A stretch of DNA of 64,000 nt from Haloferax litoreum (GTDB taxonomy: Archaea > Halobacteriota > Halobacteria > Halobacteriales > Haloferacaceae), in the NCBI RefSeq assembly GCF_009674605.1, contig NZ_WKJO01000001.1:868001-932000 (forward strand), given 5' to 3'. The first letter of the stretch is position 1. The number at the start of each line of letters is the position of its first letter. The notes beneath the pieces were generated by a model. It searched no databases and was not told the DNA's origin. It saw only the letters and a program-made list of their open reading frames with translations. Below, piece by piece: positions 4,942 through 59,955 of this stretch. The position numbers and the translations under genes are program-made.

Positions 4942-6936
4942 GTGAACGACCGGACGAGTGCGCTCGACTCGGTCGTCTTCGGCGTTGACATCCAGAGCGG
5001 TGACGTGCGCGGCGACGCCCCGTCGTACGCCCTCGTCGTGTTGGATACCCGAGACACCGAGTCAGACGAGGTCCGAATCGAACGAGACGTCGTCTCCTTC
5101 CGCAAGTTACGTCGCCTCATCGAGCGCGACGAACCAGCCATCGTCGCGACGGACAACATGTACGAACTCGCGACGGACAAAGACGATCTCGTTCGCTTCC
5201 TGCGATGGCTCCCCCACGAGACCAGACTCGTACAGGTCACGGGGGCCGAACGGCCCGAGCCACTCTCCCGAGTGGCGTCGCGGCACGGCGTCCCCTACGG
5301 GAAAGAGCCGATGAAAGAAGCCGAAGCGGCGGCCAGACTCGCCCTCGCGAACGTGGGCTACGAAGTCGCCGCCTTCGAGAACACGACCACAGTGAAGGTC
5401 TCCCGCGGTCGGTCGACTGGCAAAGGTGGCTGGAGCCAAGACCGCTACACGCGACGGATTCACGGGTCTGTCAAACAACAGTCTCGCGAAGTCGAGGCGG
5501 CACTCAAGGAGGCGAACCTCGACTTCGAACACGACGTGACCGAGAAGTACGGCGGGTACTCACAGGCATTGTTCACGGTCGAAGGCCGGCCACAGGATAT
5601 CCCCGTCTCCTCGCGTCGCTCCGGTGACACCCGCATCGAAATCGAACGTGAGCGTCGCGACGGTATCGAGTTCGAACCACTCGTCAAACGGCGTGACCGC
5701 GTCATCGTCGGCATCGACCCCGGAACGACCACCGCCGTCGCCGTCGTCGGACTGAGTGGCCGCGTCCTCGACGTCCATTCCACCCGAACCGCCGACACCG
5801 CCGCCATCATCGAATGGCTCATCGAACGCGGCCGACCGAGTCTCGTCGCGGCCGACGTGAATCCGATGCCCGAAACCGTAGAAAAATTCCGCCGGAGTTT
5901 CGACGCCGCCGGGTGGGCCCCACCGAGCGACATCCCGGTGGACGAAAAACTCCACCGCACCCGTGAGGCGAACTACGAGAACGACCACGAACGCGACGCC
6001 CTCGCGGCCGCACTGTTCGCCTTCGACGCCCACGAAGACCAGTTCGAACGCATCTCGCGGAAGGTGCCTGCCGATGTGGACCGCGAAGAGGTCATCTCGC
6101 GCGTCCTCACGAGCGAGGAGTCCGTCGAGGCCGTCCTCCGCGGGATGAACGACGACGGGGGAGACACGGGCACCGACGACACCGACGACACCCCCGAACA
6201 ACCTGAAATATCCCCCGAAGAACGGCAGATTCGCGACCTGAAGTCGCGCGTGAATCGTCTCGAATCTCACGTCGAAGACCTCAATGAGACCATCGACGAG
6301 AAGAACGAAATCATCGAGGAGTACAAGAAAGAACTCTCAGACGCCCGCCGCGAAGAGCGCCGTGAGGCCCGCGAACGCCGTGAGGTGAACCGCCTCGAAC
6401 GCGAAAACGGGAGACTCGAACGAGAAATCGACTCGCTCGAAGCCGAGAACGAAGAACTCGCAGAGAAACTCGACCGCCTCAAATCGCTGTGGAAACTCGA
6501 CCACTCGAACTTCGCGGACGTGAACACCGATGGTAACCTCGTGCCGGTGAAAATCGTCGAACAGTTCACCAACGGGGCGCTGGACCACACCGTCGAAGAG
6601 TACGGTATCGCCAGCGGCGACGTGGTCTACCTCCGCGACGCCAGCGGGGCGGGCCGGACGACGGCCGAACGACTCGCCGAGTTCGACCCTCGCGTCGTCC
6701 TCCGGTCTGGAAACCTCTCGGACGCCGCAGACAAAGTGCTCTACGAGGCAGAGATTCCGGTCGCACCCGCCGACGGCACGACGATTCAAGAGATAGACGA
6801 ACTCGCCGTCGCCCGCGAGTCAGAGATACAGGCGGCTATCGACGACTGGGAGACCCGCGTCGAAGAACGCCGGAAGGAAGACAGAAAGTCGATGGTAGAC
6901 CAGATTATCTCCGAACACCGGGCAGAAAAGCGGTGA
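4942..6936 (+). CDS. DUF460/COG2433 protein with two RNase H-like parts and a coiled coil
   Basis: 664 residues from the GTG placed by the TATA box. The N-terminal part (VVFGVDIQSGDVRGDAPSYA near residues 9-28) looks like one RNase H-fold strand set. A second, clearer RuvC/YqgF-like part begins at VIVGIDPGTTTAVAVVG (about 254-270), with a candidate catalytic Asp near 259. It continues with an AADVNP near 303 and an acidic NDHERDALAAALFAF near 346-360. A strongly charged coiled coil follows at about 430-513, then a C-terminal domain of about 150 residues. The family is archaeal and annotated as a predicted RNase H-like nuclease; substrate and activity are unknown to me. It stands alone between the SPFH gene and the AT-rich island. 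Confidence 0.85.
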   Translation: MNDRTSALDSVVFGVDIQSGDVRGDAPSYALVVLDTRDTESDEVRIERDVVSFRKLRRLIERDEPAIVATDNMYELATDKDDLVRFLRWLPHETRLVQVTGAERPEPLSRVASRHGVPYGKEPMKEAEAAARLALANVGYEVAAFENTTTVKVSRGRSTGKGGWSQDRYTRRIHGSVKQQSREVEAALKEANLDFEHDVTEKYGGYSQALFTVEGRPQDIPVSSRRSGDTRIEIERERRDGIEFEPLVKRRDRVIVGIDPGTTTAVAVVGLSGRVLDVHSTRTADTAAIIEWLIERGRPSLVAADVNPMPETVEKFRRSFDAAGWAPPSDIPVDEKLHRTREANYENDHERDALAAALFAFDAHEDQFERISRKVPADVDREEVISRVLTSEESVEAVLRGMNDDGGDTGTDDTDDTPEQPEISPEERQIRDLKSRVNRLESHVEDLNETIDEKNEIIEEYKKELSDARREERREARERREVNRLERENGRLEREIDSLEAENEELAEKLDRLKSLWKLDHSNFADVNTDGNLVPVKIVEQFTNGALDHTVEEYGIASGDVVYLRDASGAGRTTAERLAEFDPRVVLRSGNLSDAADKVLYEAEIPVAPADGTTIQEIDELAVARESEIQAAIDDWETRVEERRKEDRKSMVDQIISEHRAEKR

Positions 6937-6991
6937 GACGCGTCGAATCCGGTTTCGATTGAATCGGGTGGTGCTGTTGAAGTTACAAGTA

Positions 6992-7028
6992 GCTAATAGT
7001 TTGGTGAGGCTGTGCTGAATAGAGAGAG
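6992..7028 (+). repeat. Palindromic repeat, partial copy F
   Basis: The 37-bp segment GCTAATAGTTTGGTGAGGCT followed by GTGCTGAATAGAGAGAG aligns base for base with 20259-20295, with only scattered mismatches. It carries only the right-hand part of the repeat family (GTGCTGAATA then AGGG-like). It lies 55 nt after the stop of the DUF460 gene, at the point where the sequence turns AT-rich, and so marks the left edge of the sulfation island. Confidence 0.7.
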
Positions 7029-7169
7029 TATCTTTTGCACCTTCCTATTTCTATCTTCAGTAAACGCTGTACTATGGGGTTTGAGCTAATCTTGAAAGCG
7101 TGCAACGGGCTACCGTAATTCTTACTTACCCACGATGTGGTTGTTGACCCGAATTAGAGAAGACCAATA

Positions 7170-8057
7170 ATGACAGACGATAGACTCCCCAACTTTCTCC
7201 ATATCGGGGCACAGAAGGCTGGATCAACCTGGATACATTTTGCTCTGAAAGAACATCCAGAGATCTTCATGCCAGATAATGATAATGTTGGCTTCTTCGA
7301 TACCTATTACCACCGGGGTGACAATTGGTATCAAAAACAGTTCGATGAGTACGACGGAGAAAAAGTAATAGGAGAGGAATCACCGGGATATATCAAGCAC
7401 CCTTTGGCTCCTCAACGAGCTGCAGATTTGATTCCAGACGCCAAGATCGTATTATGTGTTCGGAATCCAATGGATCGTGCGTACTCTCAATGGTGGCACG
7501 CGCAGAAAAATTGGACAAACACTCCTTTTGAATATACCATGAATTATCATGCGGCAAATAGTGCAATCATAGTACCTGGGTTTTATGATTATCACATTTC
7601 TCGATGGGAAGAATACTATCCATCTGATCAGATAAAAATCGTTTTCTTCGACGATTTTACCTCAGATAACAAATCATTTATTCAGGATATTTACGGATTC
7701 CTTGACGTAGACGACAAGTATTCTCCCTCTATCGTTGGGAAAAGAATCAAAGCGGGTGAAGACCTCAACGAGCCAGGTGCCTTGTATCGTTCTCGTAGGC
7801 GTATCCGTAACAGCATTTCTGAACATAGCCCAGACATAATCAGGGACAACATTTTACGCCCAATGTATAACAGATTTGCCGGTACTGTGTTTGATGGCTA
7901 TCAAAAACTAATCACCCCGATCGGTAGATCAGGTTACCAAGAGGGAATGGATCCTGAAACACGTCAGGAGTTAGAAAAGATATATTACGAATCTATAAAG
8001 AATCTAGAAGAACGGACGGGGAGAAACCTCGACCACTGGTTTGAATATGCGGTATAG
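7170..8057 (+). CDS. PAPS-dependent sulfotransferase
   Basis: 295 residues of the sulfotransferase fold (PF00685/PF13469 type). The 5'-phosphosulfate-binding loop reads GAQKAGSTW near residues 13-21, and the 3'-phosphate-binding motif reads VRNPMDRAYSQWW near 97-109 with Arg98 and Ser106. No signal peptide is visible, so it should act in the cytoplasm or at the inner membrane face, moving sulfate from PAPS to a sugar, lipid or protein acceptor that cannot be read from sequence. The downstream genes make PAPS. Base composition is unlike the surroundings: 21 of 60 bases at 7501-7560 are G or C, against 38 of 60 at 18961-19020 in the thermosome gene. This suggests horizontal transfer. Confidence 0.9.
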   Translation: MTDDRLPNFLHIGAQKAGSTWIHFALKEHPEIFMPDNDNVGFFDTYYHRGDNWYQKQFDEYDGEKVIGEESPGYIKHPLAPQRAADLIPDAKIVLCVRNPMDRAYSQWWHAQKNWTNTPFEYTMNYHAANSAIIVPGFYDYHISRWEEYYPSDQIKIVFFDDFTSDNKSFIQDIYGFLDVDDKYSPSIVGKRIKAGEDLNEPGALYRSRRRIRNSISEHSPDIIRDNILRPMYNRFAGTVFDGYQKLITPIGRSGYQEGMDPETRQELEKIYYESIKNLEERTGRNLDHWFEYAV

Positions 8058-8163
8058 GCACACCGTGGGTCATGCCAGAGATGCATAGTTATTAAGTGGC
8101 ACTGGTGGCTGTCGTCCTCTTTCAAACCAATTAACTGGATCGGCCAAAGCTAATCTAGTCAGA

Positions 8164-9315
8164 ATGATTCGACCACATGGAAATGGCCTCGTCGATAGAA
8201 CCGTTGAGCAGGATCGGGGGGAGGATCTCTGGGATGATATTGACGGATCTACTACGGTAACGCTCGACAAAAATCTCCTTTTCGACTTCGTCAATATCGC
8301 CCACGGCGTGTACAGCCCCCTACGTGGTTTTATGTCGCACAATGATTTCTTGAAGGTCGTAAACGATCTGACGCTCGAAAGTGGTGTGGTATGGCCACTA
8401 CCTGTGGTTCTCGATATTGGAACTGACTTAGCCAATGAGATAAAGCCGGGTGACAGGATAGGTATCCGCCGTCCAGATGGTACGCCACTGGGTGTGATGG
8501 ATACTGACAGCGTCTACAGGTACGACAAGACGTCTGTCTGTGAAAGTCTGTTCGGCACAACCGACCAAGAACACCCGGGCGTGCGCACGATTCAGAATAA
8601 AGATCCGTTCTTTGTAGGTGGCCCTATCAAGGCATTCTCAGACGCTATCCCACGGAACGGTACGCATGACATCACCCCGAAAGAAGCTCGTGTCCTTTTC
8701 AATAAACGTGGGTTTGATACTGTCGTCGGGTTCCAAACCAGAAACGCCCCTCATCGTGCACATGAATACCTGCAAAAATCCGCACTCGAACATGTTGATG
8801 GGTTATTTATCCAACCGAAAATAGGTGAAAAGAAACCGGGCGACTACACTAACGAAGTGATTATTCAAGGGTATGAATCACTGATCGAGAACTACTATCC
8901 TACAGAATCTGTCGTCCTCTCAATGTTCAAATCCAGAATGATGTATGCTGGTCCACGCGAGGCGATCTTTGACTCTATCGTGCGGAAAAACTACGGATGT
9001 ACCCATTTCATCATTGGACGTGATCATGCCGGAGTCGGTAACTACTATGATGATTTTGCAGCCCAGGAATTATTCGATGCAATAGGTAACATCGGAATCA
9101 AACCCCTCTATTACCACTACGCGTTCTACTGTACGAAATGTGACGGTATCGTTTCTGAGAAGGTTTGTCCTCATGACAGTGACCATCACATGGAGCCTAG
9201 TGGGACAAAACTGCGAGAAATGCTTTCAGAAGGGACCCAGCCTCCATCGGAGCTTATGCGTCCAGAAGTTGCCGAAAAGGTATTGAGCCTCAACAAAATA
9301 CTAGTTGAAGAATAA
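8164..9315 (+). CDS. sat: Sulfate adenylyltransferase (ATP sulfurylase)
   Basis: 383 residues; ATP + sulfate gives APS + pyrophosphate, the first step of PAPS synthesis. The catalytic QTRNAPHRAHE motif is at residues 191-201 and GRDHAGVG at 285-292. The HGVYSPLRGFM segment near 47-57 belongs to the N-terminal PUA-like part. There is a C-terminal zinc-type cluster (CTKCDGIV ... CPHDSDHH) as in many archaeal and bacterial Sat proteins. It follows the sulfotransferase by 106 nt and its stop lies just before the APS kinase ATG. The AT-rich composition is shared with its neighbours. A role in PAPS supply, rather than dissimilatory sulfur metabolism, is inferred from the kinase next to it. Confidence 0.95.
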   Translation: MIRPHGNGLVDRTVEQDRGEDLWDDIDGSTTVTLDKNLLFDFVNIAHGVYSPLRGFMSHNDFLKVVNDLTLESGVVWPLPVVLDIGTDLANEIKPGDRIGIRRPDGTPLGVMDTDSVYRYDKTSVCESLFGTTDQEHPGVRTIQNKDPFFVGGPIKAFSDAIPRNGTHDITPKEARVLFNKRGFDTVVGFQTRNAPHRAHEYLQKSALEHVDGLFIQPKIGEKKPGDYTNEVIIQGYESLIENYYPTESVVLSMFKSRMMYAGPREAIFDSIVRKNYGCTHFIIGRDHAGVGNYYDDFAAQELFDAIGNIGIKPLYYHYAFYCTKCDGIVSEKVCPHDSDHHMEPSGTKLREMLSEGTQPPSELMRPEVAEKVLSLNKILVEE

Positions 9316-9316
9316 T

Positions 9317-9937
9317 ATGTTCACGCTCTGGTTTATGGGCCGGCCGGCCTCCGGGAAGTCCACACTCGCAAGTCGCATAGAGGACAGGCTAATTGAGAGA
9401 GGTCTCTCAATAGAGAACTTAGACGGTGACGATATCCGTAAGAACCTTCATCCTGATCTCGGATTCTCCCGTGAGGATCGGCGGACGAACAACCGTCGTA
9501 CTGCATACATTGCGAAGTTACTCAACCGAAGCGGGATTCCTGTTAGTGTTGGTATGATTACACCCTTCCGAGACTCCCAAGAACAAGCTAGAGACATTGT
9601 CGAAGATGAAGGCGAATTCATCCTCATTTATGTCAAATGCTCAGTGGATGCTGCTGAAGAACGGGATCCGAAAGGGCTCTACGAAAAAGCTCGGGAGGGT
9701 AAAATTGAAAAGTTCACTGGCATCAACCATCCCTTCCAAGAGCCGCTGAATCCAGAAATTGTGGTTGACACTGAAGAACACTCCACCGACGAAGCAGTTG
9801 AACACATCATGACTCAACTGGAGGAGATGGGTATATTGGATGAGCGCCTCGATGACGAATATAGTTTCCCGATCACTCACAAAGAAGAACAAAGAGTAAT
9901 TGAACGTCTCAACAAGCTCGGATATTTGGACGAATAA
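9317..9937 (+). CDS. cysC: Adenylylsulfate (APS) kinase
   Basis: 206 residues; phosphorylates APS at the 3' position to form PAPS. The P-loop GRPASGKST is at residues 8-16, followed by NLDGDDIRKNLHPDLGFSREDRRTNNRR (quoted in part: LDGDDIR and FSREDR), the hallmark APS-binding region, and by the KGLYEKAREG lid-type motif. The ATG at 9317 follows the Sat stop by one base, so the two are one transcription unit; a TTG at 9305 inside sat is a weaker alternative start. Together with Sat and the sulfotransferase it makes a complete sulfate-activation and transfer set. Confidence 0.94.
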   Translation: MFTLWFMGRPASGKSTLASRIEDRLIERGLSIENLDGDDIRKNLHPDLGFSREDRRTNNRRTAYIAKLLNRSGIPVSVGMITPFRDSQEQARDIVEDEGEFILIYVKCSVDAAEERDPKGLYEKAREGKIEKFTGINHPFQEPLNPEIVVDTEEHSTDEAVEHIMTQLEEMGILDERLDDEYSFPITHKEEQRVIERLNKLGYLDE

Positions 9938-9954
9938 CAGTTTAGATACAGCAG

Positions 9955-10824
9955 TTATAATTGGCGATGTTCGTTGGCACGCTTTCGGAGTGCTTCTAAT
10001 TGCGTGGACGTAATCCGCACTTCCCCGATTCGATACTTACCCGAGTTAGGCCCGTGACAATCCGATCCGCCAGTCGTCAGTAGATTATATTTCTCTGCAA
10101 ATTCAGAAGCATCTTCTGAGGTGACGTCGGCATAGCCCTCACTTGGCGCCTCATCATATGGGTATGGTACCTCGATAGCATCGAGTCCGTCGGCGACGAG
10201 TTCTTCGAGAATCGTCTCGATACTATCAGTTCGAACCCGTCCGGGGTGAGCAAAGGAGACGACACCGCCAGCATCCTGTATAGTCTCAATAACCTCTTCT
10301 GCAGGGACTCGTTTCATTGGTACAAAAGCTTCCCCATCACTTCCGAGATAGATTTCAAACGCCATACCGACGGAATCAACAATACCTGCGTCGATCAAAA
10401 CGTTCGCGATATGCGGTCGGCCGAGGATGCCTTTGACATTAGTTCGAACCTCGTCATACGAGCGGTCAAGATTAGATACCATTTGGAGTTGGTCTATTAT
10501 CTTGCGATTGCGATCACGGCGGTATGAGCGAACTTTTTCAAGAAGGTTGAGAAGATTTTCATCTAAAGGATCAACGTAGTACCCTAAAAGTTCGACTTTT
10601 GTATCTAGAACGTCAGCTCGAACTTCGACGCCTGTAATGAGTTCAAGATTATTTTGGTTGGATACTCGCTGACTAAAATAGTCTGCTATTGTATCGTGGT
10701 CAGTGATCGCAATCGCTTCGAGAGCAAGTTCTTGAGACTGTCGGATACGCTCCTCAACAGAGCATGTCCCATCTGAGGCTGTCGTATGTAAGTGTAAATC
10801 AGCCACACCTTCGCTGGTGTTCAT
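9955..10824 (-). CDS. PHP-domain phosphoesterase, TrpH/YciV type (candidate PAP phosphatase)
   Basis: 289 residues of the PHP family. Metal-binding motifs are HLHTTASDG at 11-19, ITDHDT near 40-45, a GRPHIAN segment, SFAHPGR near 190 and a C-terminal GGSDCHG. TrpH/YciV-type PHP enzymes include characterised 3',5'-bisphosphate nucleotidases acting on pAp and 5'-3' oligonucleotide exonucleases. PAP is exactly the by-product of the sulfotransferase next door, so PAP removal is a reasonable inference. The gene is convergent with cysC, 17 nt apart, and shares the island's AT-rich composition. A TATA-like box at 10852-10857 places the transcript start close to the ATG at 10824. A paralogue is at 59161-59955. 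Confidence 0.85.
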   Translation of the reverse strand: MNTSEGVADLHLHTTASDGTCSVEERIRQSQELALEAIAITDHDTIADYFSQRVSNQNNLELITGVEVRADVLDTKVELLGYYVDPLDENLLNLLEKVRSYRRDRNRKIIDQLQMVSNLDRSYDEVRTNVKGILGRPHIANVLIDAGIVDSVGMAFEIYLGSDGEAFVPMKRVPAEEVIETIQDAGGVVSFAHPGRVRTDSIETILEELVADGLDAIEVPYPYDEAPSEGYADVTSEDASEFAEKYNLLTTGGSDCHGPNSGKYRIGEVRITSTQLEALRKRANEHRQL

Positions 10825-10851
10825 AACTACATCACCATACTATCTCTTTTC

Positions 10852-10857
10852 ATTATA
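10852..10857 (-). promoter_or_regulatory. TATA box for the PHP gene
   Basis: On the minus strand the bases read GATATAATG, centred about 30 nt before the ATG at 10824. This predicts a leaderless or nearly leaderless transcript for the island PHP gene. Confidence 0.5.
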
Positions 10858-10983
10858 TCGTTTTGATGTACAGATTTCCACCGATAGACGGGTTCAACAA
10901 GACTCTCAAAACGAATGCGAGAGATCCATAGCCCGGGTGTAAAACAAACGCACGGACTTCTTTGGTCGTACCAAGGAAGTGGT

Positions 10984-11318
10984 TCATTTCGACGCGGCTT
11001 CGTCGGCCTTCATGACGGTCCCACCCTTATTCGTACGAACGATATCAGTATCACCATGCTCGTCTGTGGGTTGCGGAATTCCCACGTATAGATGCGACAC
11101 ATCTACAAGGTATTTCTCAGTCAAAGTCTCGCAGGTTCTGGCTTGACTTCGCCGTGGTCATTCACTCGGGGGAGTCCAGTATCACGCCAGGTGAACCCAC
11201 GCCCCTCGTGGCAGGCCTCGAGGTAGACGCACTCTTGGAGTATGTAGAGGTTCACGCACTTGTCGTTTGATGACAGAAACCGACGGGCGACCTCATCCGT
11301 GTAGCCAATTTTTCCTAA
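10984..11318 (-). pseudogene. Frameshifted, 5'-truncated gene remnant
   Basis: Two adjoining minus-strand reading frames look coding. The first (11318-11121) reads LGKIGYTDEVARRFLSSNDK, then CVNLYILQECVYLEACHEGR, then GFTWRDTGLPRVNDHGEVKP, and stops at TGA 11123-11121. The second, shifted frame runs from about 11135 to TGA 10986-10984 and reads TEKYLVDVSHLYVGIPQPTD, then EHGDTDIVRTNKGGTVMKAD. Together they would give one protein of about 110 residues, broken by a frameshift near 11125-11150. No start codon is present because a TAG (11321-11319) and then repeat copy C cut off the upstream end. I do not recognise the family. The rest of 10825-11430 holds nothing else that I can see. Confidence 0.5.
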
Positions 11319-11336
11319 CTAGAACTCACCGCGTGT

Positions 11337-11400
11337 CCTGAACGCACCCTCTGTCTGTGTCACGCGAATTCTGTCGAATCCTGATGAGTTCAACAGAGCG
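11337..11400 (+). repeat. Palindromic repeat, short copy C
   Basis: It starts CCTGAACGCACCCTCTG, continues with the family core TCTGTGTCACGC, and ends AACAGAGCG. The ends pair: CTCTGT at 11349-11354 with ACAGAG at 11393-11398. It is nearest to copy D (21203-21263), which has the same end stems. It lies at the right edge of the AT-rich island, directly upstream of the truncated remnant, with normal GC-rich sequence beginning just after it. Confidence 0.7.
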
Positions 11401-11430
11401 AATCAGGTCTCCTCCAGTCGGACCTCGTCG

Positions 11431-11745
11431 TTAACTCGCCACGTCGTCGTCGCTCCCAGTCAATCCGCCGACCACGAAGTAAAGTGCCGCTCCGAGCAGT
11501 GGTGCGAAGAAGGCGAAGGCCGCCCAGAACGTCGCGTTCCGCCCTTTGAACGTCGCGTCCTTGTGGACCCGATAGGGAAGGTAGACGTGGAAGACGAGGA
11601 AGTAGACGGCGAAGCCGAAGATGTACGGGAGTAAGTCGCCGCCGCTGACCGACGCCCACATCACCGCCAACAGGCCGAAGACGGCGAGCATGAGCGCGAT
11701 GAAGATGAAAATCGGCGCTCGCGTGCGAGTTCCAGAGTCGGACAT
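11431..11745 (-). CDS. Small four-helix membrane protein
   Basis: 104 residues from the ATG at 11745 (a GTG one codon earlier is possible). Four hydrophobic segments are visible: IFIFIALMLAVFGLLAV (about 11-30), LLPYIFGFAVYFLVFHVYL (about 37-56), a short loop with HKDATFKGRNATFWAAF, and FAPLLGAALYFVVGGL near the end. An acidic DDDVAS tail follows. The family is not recognised and function is unknown. It is divergent from tyrS and close to the right end of the repeat-bounded island. Confidence 0.75.
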   Translation of the reverse strand: MSDSGTRTRAPIFIFIALMLAVFGLLAVMWASVSGGDLLPYIFGFAVYFLVFHVYLPYRVHKDATFKGRNATFWAAFAFFAPLLGAALYFVVGGLTGSDDDVAS

Positions 11746-59160: not shown

Positions 59161-59955
59161 ATGCACGACGACCCGCCGGTAGCGGACCTCCACCTCCATA
59201 CGACCGCATCGGACGGTCGCCTCACCACCGACCGTCTCCCCGATGCGGCCCGCGCGGGCGGTGTCGACGTGGTGGCGGTGACGGACCACGACCGCTATCA
59301 CCCGGAACTGGACGCGCCAGTCGTCGAGCGTGACGGCGTGGCCATCGTCCACGGCATCGAACTCCGCGTCGACGCCGGTGAACGTCGGGTCGACCTCCTC
59401 GGATACGGTGTCGAACGGCGCGCCGGACTCACTGCCGAAGTCGAGCGACTTCAGCAAAACCGGGTCGAGCGCGCGCGCAAAATCGTCGAGTACGTCGAAG
59501 AGACGACCGGCGTCCACCTCGATATCGACCTCCACGACGGTATCGGCCGACCACACATCGCGCACGCAATCGACACCAGCGACGCCCCGTACGACTATCA
59601 GGGGGCGTTCGACGAACTCATCGGCGCGGACGGACCGTGTTACGTTCCCCGGGACCTCCCGTCGTTCGACCACGGCGTGGGCGTACTGAACGATGCGTGC
59701 GCAGTCGTCGGCCTCGCACACCCCTTCCGGTACCGTGACCCGGCGGGCGCACTCTCCCTGTGTGCGGACCTCGATGCTGTCGAACGGTACTACCCGTACG
59801 GATACGAGACGGACGAGTCACTCGTCGACGACGCAATCGAGAAGTTCGACCTGTTCGCGACCGGCGGAAGCGACGCGCACGACGAGACGTTGGGCCGTGC
59901 TGGACCGCCAGAGTCGGCGTACAGTCAGTTTGCCGGTGAAATTCCCGGTCTCTAA
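59161..59955 (+). CDS. PHP-domain phosphoesterase (second copy)
   Basis: 264 residues. PHP metal ligands are ADLHLHTTASDG near residues 8-19, VAVTDHDRYHPEL near 38-50, GIELRVDAGERRVDLLGYG near 66-84, GRPHIAHAI near 123-131, GLAHPFRYRD near 182-191 and GGSDAHDE near 236-243. It shares the TrpH/YciV plan with the island copy at 9955-10824, about 40% of motifs being identical by eye. It may be a nucleotidase or exonuclease. Its GC-rich composition is that of the core genome, so it is probably the older copy. Confidence 0.88.
   Translation: MHDDPPVADLHLHTTASDGRLTTDRLPDAARAGGVDVVAVTDHDRYHPELDAPVVERDGVAIVHGIELRVDAGERRVDLLGYGVERRAGLTAEVERLQQNRVERARKIVEYVEETTGVHLDIDLHDGIGRPHIAHAIDTSDAPYDYQGAFDELIGADGPCYVPRDLPSFDHGVGVLNDACAVVGLAHPFRYRDPAGALSLCADLDAVERYYPYGYETDESLVDDAIEKFDLFATGGSDAHDETLGRAGPPESAYSQFAGEIPGL

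Follow-up and report, generated by a model that had tools for sequence, protein, structure and literature searches.

A low-GC island of Haloferax litoreum joins PAPS synthesis and a sulfotransferase to a PHP-family protein proposed to clear PAP

In archaea, the clearance of 3'-phosphoadenosine 5'-phosphate (PAP, or pAp), which sulfotransferases release from 3'-phosphoadenosine 5'-phosphosulfate (PAPS), has so far been credited to DHH enzymes of sulfate-assimilating methanogens and Thermococcales, and all archaeal PAP phosphatases characterised to date are of this type (PMC8268124, PMC10322725). The PHP metal phosphoesterases of the TrpH/RNase AM/Cv1693 group form another relevant family, which includes RNase AM, an exoribonuclease with active-site residues described in PMC9410882, as well as Cv1693, which hydrolyses pAp (cited in PMC8268124). 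Here we analyse a four-gene island within a 64,000-nucleotide stretch of the Haloferax litoreum genome (assembly GCF_009674605.1, contig NZ_WKJO01000001.1, positions 868,001 to 932,000 of the forward strand; hereafter the window), where a PHP protein of this group is encoded next to ATP sulfurylase (Sat), adenosine 5'-phosphosulfate (APS) kinase (CysC) and a PAPS-dependent sulfotransferase. We propose, with a probability of roughly 0.72, that the island is a horizontally acquired sulfation cassette whose PHP protein clears the PAP released by the sulfotransferase.

A preliminary description of the window had placed these four genes at 7170-10824, and all four families are confirmed there, the sulfotransferase, Sat and CysC scoring above curated cut-offs. 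The sulfotransferase (295 residues, 7170..8057, + strand; PF00685, 63.3 bits, cut-off 22) displays the 5'-phosphosulfate-binding (PSB) loop GAQKAGSTW and the 3'-phosphate-binding motif RNPMDRAYSQW, has 3rnl and heparan-sulfate N- and 3-O-sulfotransferases as its best PDB relatives, and is the sole PF00685 gene found in the window genome. Sat (383 residues, 8164..9315, + strand; TIGR00339, 361.9 bits, cut-off 322.95) carries the QTRNAPHRAH and GRDHAG motifs. CysC (206 residues with a C-terminal extension, 9317..9937, + strand; TIGR00455, 193 bits, cut-off 138.7) had been listed with a TTG start at 9305, which is too far upstream, as orthologues begin MFTLWFMGRP. The PHP gene (289 residues, 9955..10824, - strand; PF02811, 41.7 bits, cut-off 26.4), the proposed PAP phosphatase, converges on cysC, its 3' end lying 17 bp from the cysC stop. 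In the proposed cycle Sat would make APS, CysC would phosphorylate it to PAPS, the sulfotransferase would pass the sulfuryl group on to a molecule of the cell surface, most likely one of the sugars of a glycan, and the PHP protein would take the 3'-phosphate off the PAP so released, yielding AMP and inorganic phosphate and keeping PAP low so that neither the sulfotransferase nor RNases are inhibited. This make, use and clear logic, already present in the preliminary description, is supported by the gene identities, the recurrent linkage, the conserved AMP site and the lack of a CysQ over cut-off (see below). The term self-contained, used in the same description, suits the PAPS cycle and not the whole process, as the acceptor pathway and a pyrophosphatase are encoded elsewhere.

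The island (6937..11444, no strand) is a low-GC insertion of 4.3-4.5 kb filled by the four genes, with about 600 bp of non-coding sequence at its right end. It is flanked on one side by a DUF460 gene and on the other by a gene for a small membrane protein that precedes tyrS. In 13 congeners these flanks are kept and the island is absent from the site: the alignment to one of them (L124) stops at 6936 and resumes at 11445, with 26 bp in between, and in the nearest one (L123) 889 bp of unrelated sequence occupies the insertion site. The site is variable: in the nearest congener (L123:3686-4573) it encodes a transcription-factor-S-like protein together with a small membrane protein. The island genes have a GC of 0.43-0.48 and a third-position GC (GC3) of 0.42-0.50, against 0.63 and 0.76-0.86 for the flanking genes and about 0.63 and about 0.8 for the 3.56 Mb genome. 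Given the low GC3 and the island-free flanks of the congeners, the four genes arrived together, with nothing else of note, and the island was probably acquired horizontally. Neither repeats nor an integrase were found at its ends and no Rfam family within it; close-relative scans of viral contigs gave no relative of PHP or CysC, and plasmids gave no match to PHP.

Concerning the PHP protein, its best specific models are NF041577, the NCBIfam equivalog for 3',5'-nucleoside bisphosphate phosphatase (139 bits, curated cut-off 400), and RNase RNM (131 bits, cut-off 375); both scores are below cut-off, which is why we assign the protein to neither equivalog. Its AlphaFold model (predicted local distance difference test, pLDDT, 95.3; predicted template modelling score, pTM, 0.92) matches 3e0f (Z 32.8), 9etk (30.1), 2yb1 with AMP and phosphate bound (29.9) and 7ug9 (24.2), and also 3o0f. 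These matches to BAD_1165, RNase AM and Cv1693 are full length with Z of 24-33, versus 16.4 for the next-best match. The modelled fold, a PHP barrel with an insertion domain, is that of the TrpH/RNase AM/Cv1693 group, in agreement with the earlier assignment to TrpH/YciV. The accompanying claim that members of the group act on pAp fits Cv1693, while RNase AM is an RNA exonuclease; since the closest characterised relatives include both, family membership alone gives no substrate.

When the sequence is mapped onto the active-site residues that PMC9410882 gives for RNase AM, the metal ligands H11, D18, H43, E67, H193, D255 and H257 agree with RNase AM and Cv1693, the trinuclear ligand pattern of the group being HxH, D, H, E, H, H, DxH. 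Conservation is complete at the AMP-binding positions, with R102, R105, R136 and F156 equivalent to RNase AM Arg107, Arg110, Arg141 and Phe161, and the phosphate-contacting Arg201 is kept as R196. Judged from its residues, the pocket would accommodate a 5'-phosphorylated adenine nucleotide, a description that suits PAP and RNA alike, and it is the genomic context that would select PAP as the substrate. The protein could otherwise be a nucleic-acid or nanoRNA 5'-3' exonuclease like RNase AM, or a broad nucleotide phosphatase, whose position beside sat-cysC has nothing to do with PAP clearance; RNase AM has the same fold and AMP site (PMC9410882), and the scores of the two specific models differ by no more than about 8 bits. 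The distribution of the protein, examined in 391 Halobacteria genomes with a threshold of E < 1e-80 for its clade, makes us regard this alternative as unlikely.

Sat occurs in 11 of these genomes, the PHP clade in 7 and both in 6, for which a hypergeometric test that takes genomes as independent yields p about 7e-10, an overstated value because they are not fully so. In all six genomes the PHP gene is physically linked to sat-cysC, within 4.3 kb: for five copies the distance to cysC or sat is 17, about 47, 56, 95 and 113 bp, and the sixth is 4.3 kb downstream, within one glycan gene cluster. These genomes span three families and six genera, and the layout varies, the PHP gene being convergent with cysC in the window, collinear after it in L017, collinear but spaced in L018, and head-to-head with sat in L019, L020 and L021, the last from Halobellus inordinatus, of the same family as the window genome. 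Linkage in five other genomes thus answers the doubt, raised in the preliminary description, that the PHP gene might be missing beside sat-cysC everywhere else. In the PHP tree the six linked copies group together (88/95), and the unlinked copy of G198 falls outside. A rare and patchy clade, linked to sat-cysC in 6 of its 7 members in varied layouts, does not look like a housekeeping exonuclease; besides, the window genome encodes a second TrpH protein, more distant and placed far from the linked copies in the tree, which is also present in three sat-cysC genomes lacking the PHP clade. This second protein is encoded at 59161-59952 of the window, has relatives in G179, G219 and G301, and carries Asp at a position that is a His metal ligand in RNase AM. 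A reassortment of genes, with sat and PHP from different donors, was considered and dropped: the Sat data reject a grouping of the window with Halobellus (p 4e-7), and the PHP data do not reject one of the window with L017 (p 0.155), so that incongruence is not established.

Several observations weigh against PAP clearance by the PHP protein as part of a sulfation cassette. Three sat-cysC loci, those with the closest Sat (G179, G301 and G219; 76-79% identity), have no PHP clade member and only the distant TrpH copy, thus PHP is not obligatory, and G198 carries the PHP clade with neither sat nor cysC found, as a more general nuclease or phosphatase would allow. The closest bacterial relatives, from Bipolaricaulota, have no sat or cysC in the flanks examined, and one family member that has this nucleotide site too, RNase AM, is an exoribonuclease. 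There is a single exception among the metal ligands, His83 of RNase AM being Glu78 in the PHP protein; Glu could in principle bind metal at this position. Five DHH proteins of the window genome could hydrolyse pAp, and the island stands alone, about 1.6 Mb from aglB. As to related loci, the G198 gene (L033:9517-10365) is found beside alkaline phosphatase (AlkP)-superfamily genes and a flippase, and cysC appears in L049 and L107 only of the 78 non-haloarchaeal TrpH loci among the matches listed (about 1.1 Mb of flank in all). The idea that Glu at the metal ligand is a haloarchaeal novelty was rejected, as the Bipolaricaulota relatives carry it too.

No CysQ exceeds the TIGR01331 cut-off (228.8) in 15 genomes; the best score in the window genome is 96 bits, and its inositol monophosphatase/CysQ homologue is nearer to inositol and histidinol phosphatases. 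Three of the five DHH proteins were compared and give weak matches to RecJ-like proteins, cyclic dinucleotide phosphodiesterases, Mn pyrophosphatases and NrnA, so a back-up PAP phosphatase could be among the five. The earlier suggestion that PHP stands in for CysQ as the usual enzyme does not apply, because the characterised archaeal PAP phosphatases are DHH-type (PMC8268124, PMC10322725). A different substrate should also be weighed: the PHP protein might act on PAPS itself, with 3'-dephosphorylation to APS serving as a brake, or on a phosphorylated sugar or lipid glycan intermediate. PMC8268124, citing work on T. onnurineus, reports that an archaeal DHH-type enzyme degrades PAPS as well as pAp, most linked PHP copies lie within glycan loci, and the sat-linked members share additional conserved charged residues (K76, R172, K263 and R265). 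With the AMP-binding residues fully intact, a sugar phosphate is a less natural fit than a free adenine nucleotide as product, and we hold this option to be quite improbable.

Sat and CysC catalyse the first steps of assimilatory sulfate reduction, and in principle they could serve that pathway here, with the sulfotransferase being incidental. This seems very improbable, in view of the genes around them: no cysH lies beside sat-cysC in any sat-cysC genome, the PF01507 matches of these genomes are weak and distant from sat (CysD-like in the window genome), and sulfotransferases occur in or beside 9/9 sat-cysC loci. A strong cysH adjoins sat only in G285 and G382 (L022 and L023), both devoid of cysC and of the PHP clade, and these sat-cysH loci apparently do represent assimilatory sulfate reduction. 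For the sulfation cassette, the acceptor is likely a surface glycan sugar, because AglB, flippase or glycosyltransferase genes are present in most homologous modules, a context that favours the glycan among the acceptors listed in the preliminary description; a sulfated glycolipid is possible. AglB is encoded in L017, L020 and L021, where its identity is taken from length and start sequence, confirmation by TIGR04154 being for the window genome only, and most related loci contain flippases, glycosyltransferases and other sulfotransferases.

It should be noted that the APS kinase ends in a tail, EEQRVIERLNKLGYLDE (9884..9934, + strand), beyond the reach of alignments to any PDB APS kinase. The form RLxxLGYL ends 8/9 haloarchaeal APS kinases, and RLxxLGY[LM] is common to APS kinases, AlkP-superfamily sulfatase/sulfotransferase-like proteins and CysD-like PF01507 proteins, with instances in L014-L016, L018-L021, L033, L049, L138, L141 and L147. 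AlkP-superfamily proteins of the sat-cysC loci and of the window-genome aglB locus end in it; among the 60 called open reading frames of the window one does, the APS kinase itself. According to primer sequences, the demonstrated sulfotransferase VNG1056C ends LEDLGYL and VNG1057C, also demonstrated, ends less exactly in LEELGYT (PMC11980604). Elsewhere in the window genome (L147:465-2507, C1:2914464-2916506) two tandem CysD-like PF01507 proteins carry an LGYM tail, the first having CysD (1zun) as sole PDB relative; most of the haloarchaeal genomes examined contain PF01507 matches of comparable size, and such proteins may activate sulfate for AlkP-type sulfotransferases in haloarchaea generally. 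In Candidatus Zixiibacteriota (L049:9378-10855) a tailed cysC immediately precedes a TrpH-type PHP gene, and AlkP-superfamily-like genes are found close by, an arrangement which suggests that the cysC-PHP pairing exists in bacteria. A bolder and speculative scheme, to which we give a minor chance, would make the PHP protein with its altered metal site (Glu for His) a dedicated archaeal glycan-sulfation PAP phosphatase, and the shared LGY[LM] tail a dock that brings together APS kinase, AlkP-superfamily sulfotransferases and CysD-like proteins for the hand-over of PAPS or APS.

No report of PHP proteins linked to PAPS genes was found in the open-licence literature, hence the linkage to sat-cysC is new as far as that literature goes, while pairing of a PAPS gene with a PAP phosphatase is already known. 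If the proposal is correct, PHP is another unrelated fold recruited for PAP clearance, the role of a TrpH-type protein in sulfation islands is explained, and the island offers a mobile set of four genes that, once transferred to a genetically tractable haloarchaeon, could equip it for PAPS-dependent sulfation of its surface.

Among known enzymes, Cv1693 of Chromobacterium violaceum (2yb1) shares with the PHP protein the full-length fold, the AMP-binding Arg/Arg/Arg/Phe set, the phosphate-contacting Arg and all metal ligands but one; the PHP protein differs in being archaeal and inside a sulfation cassette, below the NCBIfam equivalog cut-off, 26% identical over the structural alignment, and in having Glu for His at one metal-beta ligand. 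RNase AM/RNase RNM (YciV/TrpH of E. coli, 7ug9; V. cholerae, 9etk) resemble it in fold and active-site residues, but they act on RNA 5' ends, whereas the PHP protein sits with PAPS genes and falls far short of the RNase RNM cut-off. The archaeal DHH-type enzymes MtPAPP (PMC10322725) and PyapApase (PMC8268124) catalyse the reaction proposed here, and the MtPAPP gene likewise has genes for ATP sulfurylase and APS kinase as neighbours (PMC10322725); their DHH/DHHA1 fold is unrelated, and their pathways serve sulfate assimilation instead of sulfation. The sulfated N-glycan of Halobacterium salinarum is a haloarchaeal precedent, and AglB and AlkP-superfamily proteins are encoded in the related loci; its sulfotransferases VNG1056C and VNG1057C are AlkP-superfamily enzymes, not PF00685, and the main text of PMC11980604 mentions neither PAPS nor PHP. 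In gene arrangement the cassette is also like the rhizobial nodQ-cysQ pair, in which, by annotation, a PAPS-making gene adjoins a PAP phosphatase gene. That locus is devoted to Nod factor sulfation, and it differs from the Haloferax litoreum island in that its phosphatase is CysQ, of the FIG superfamily, and its sulfurylase and kinase are CysN/C-type fusions.

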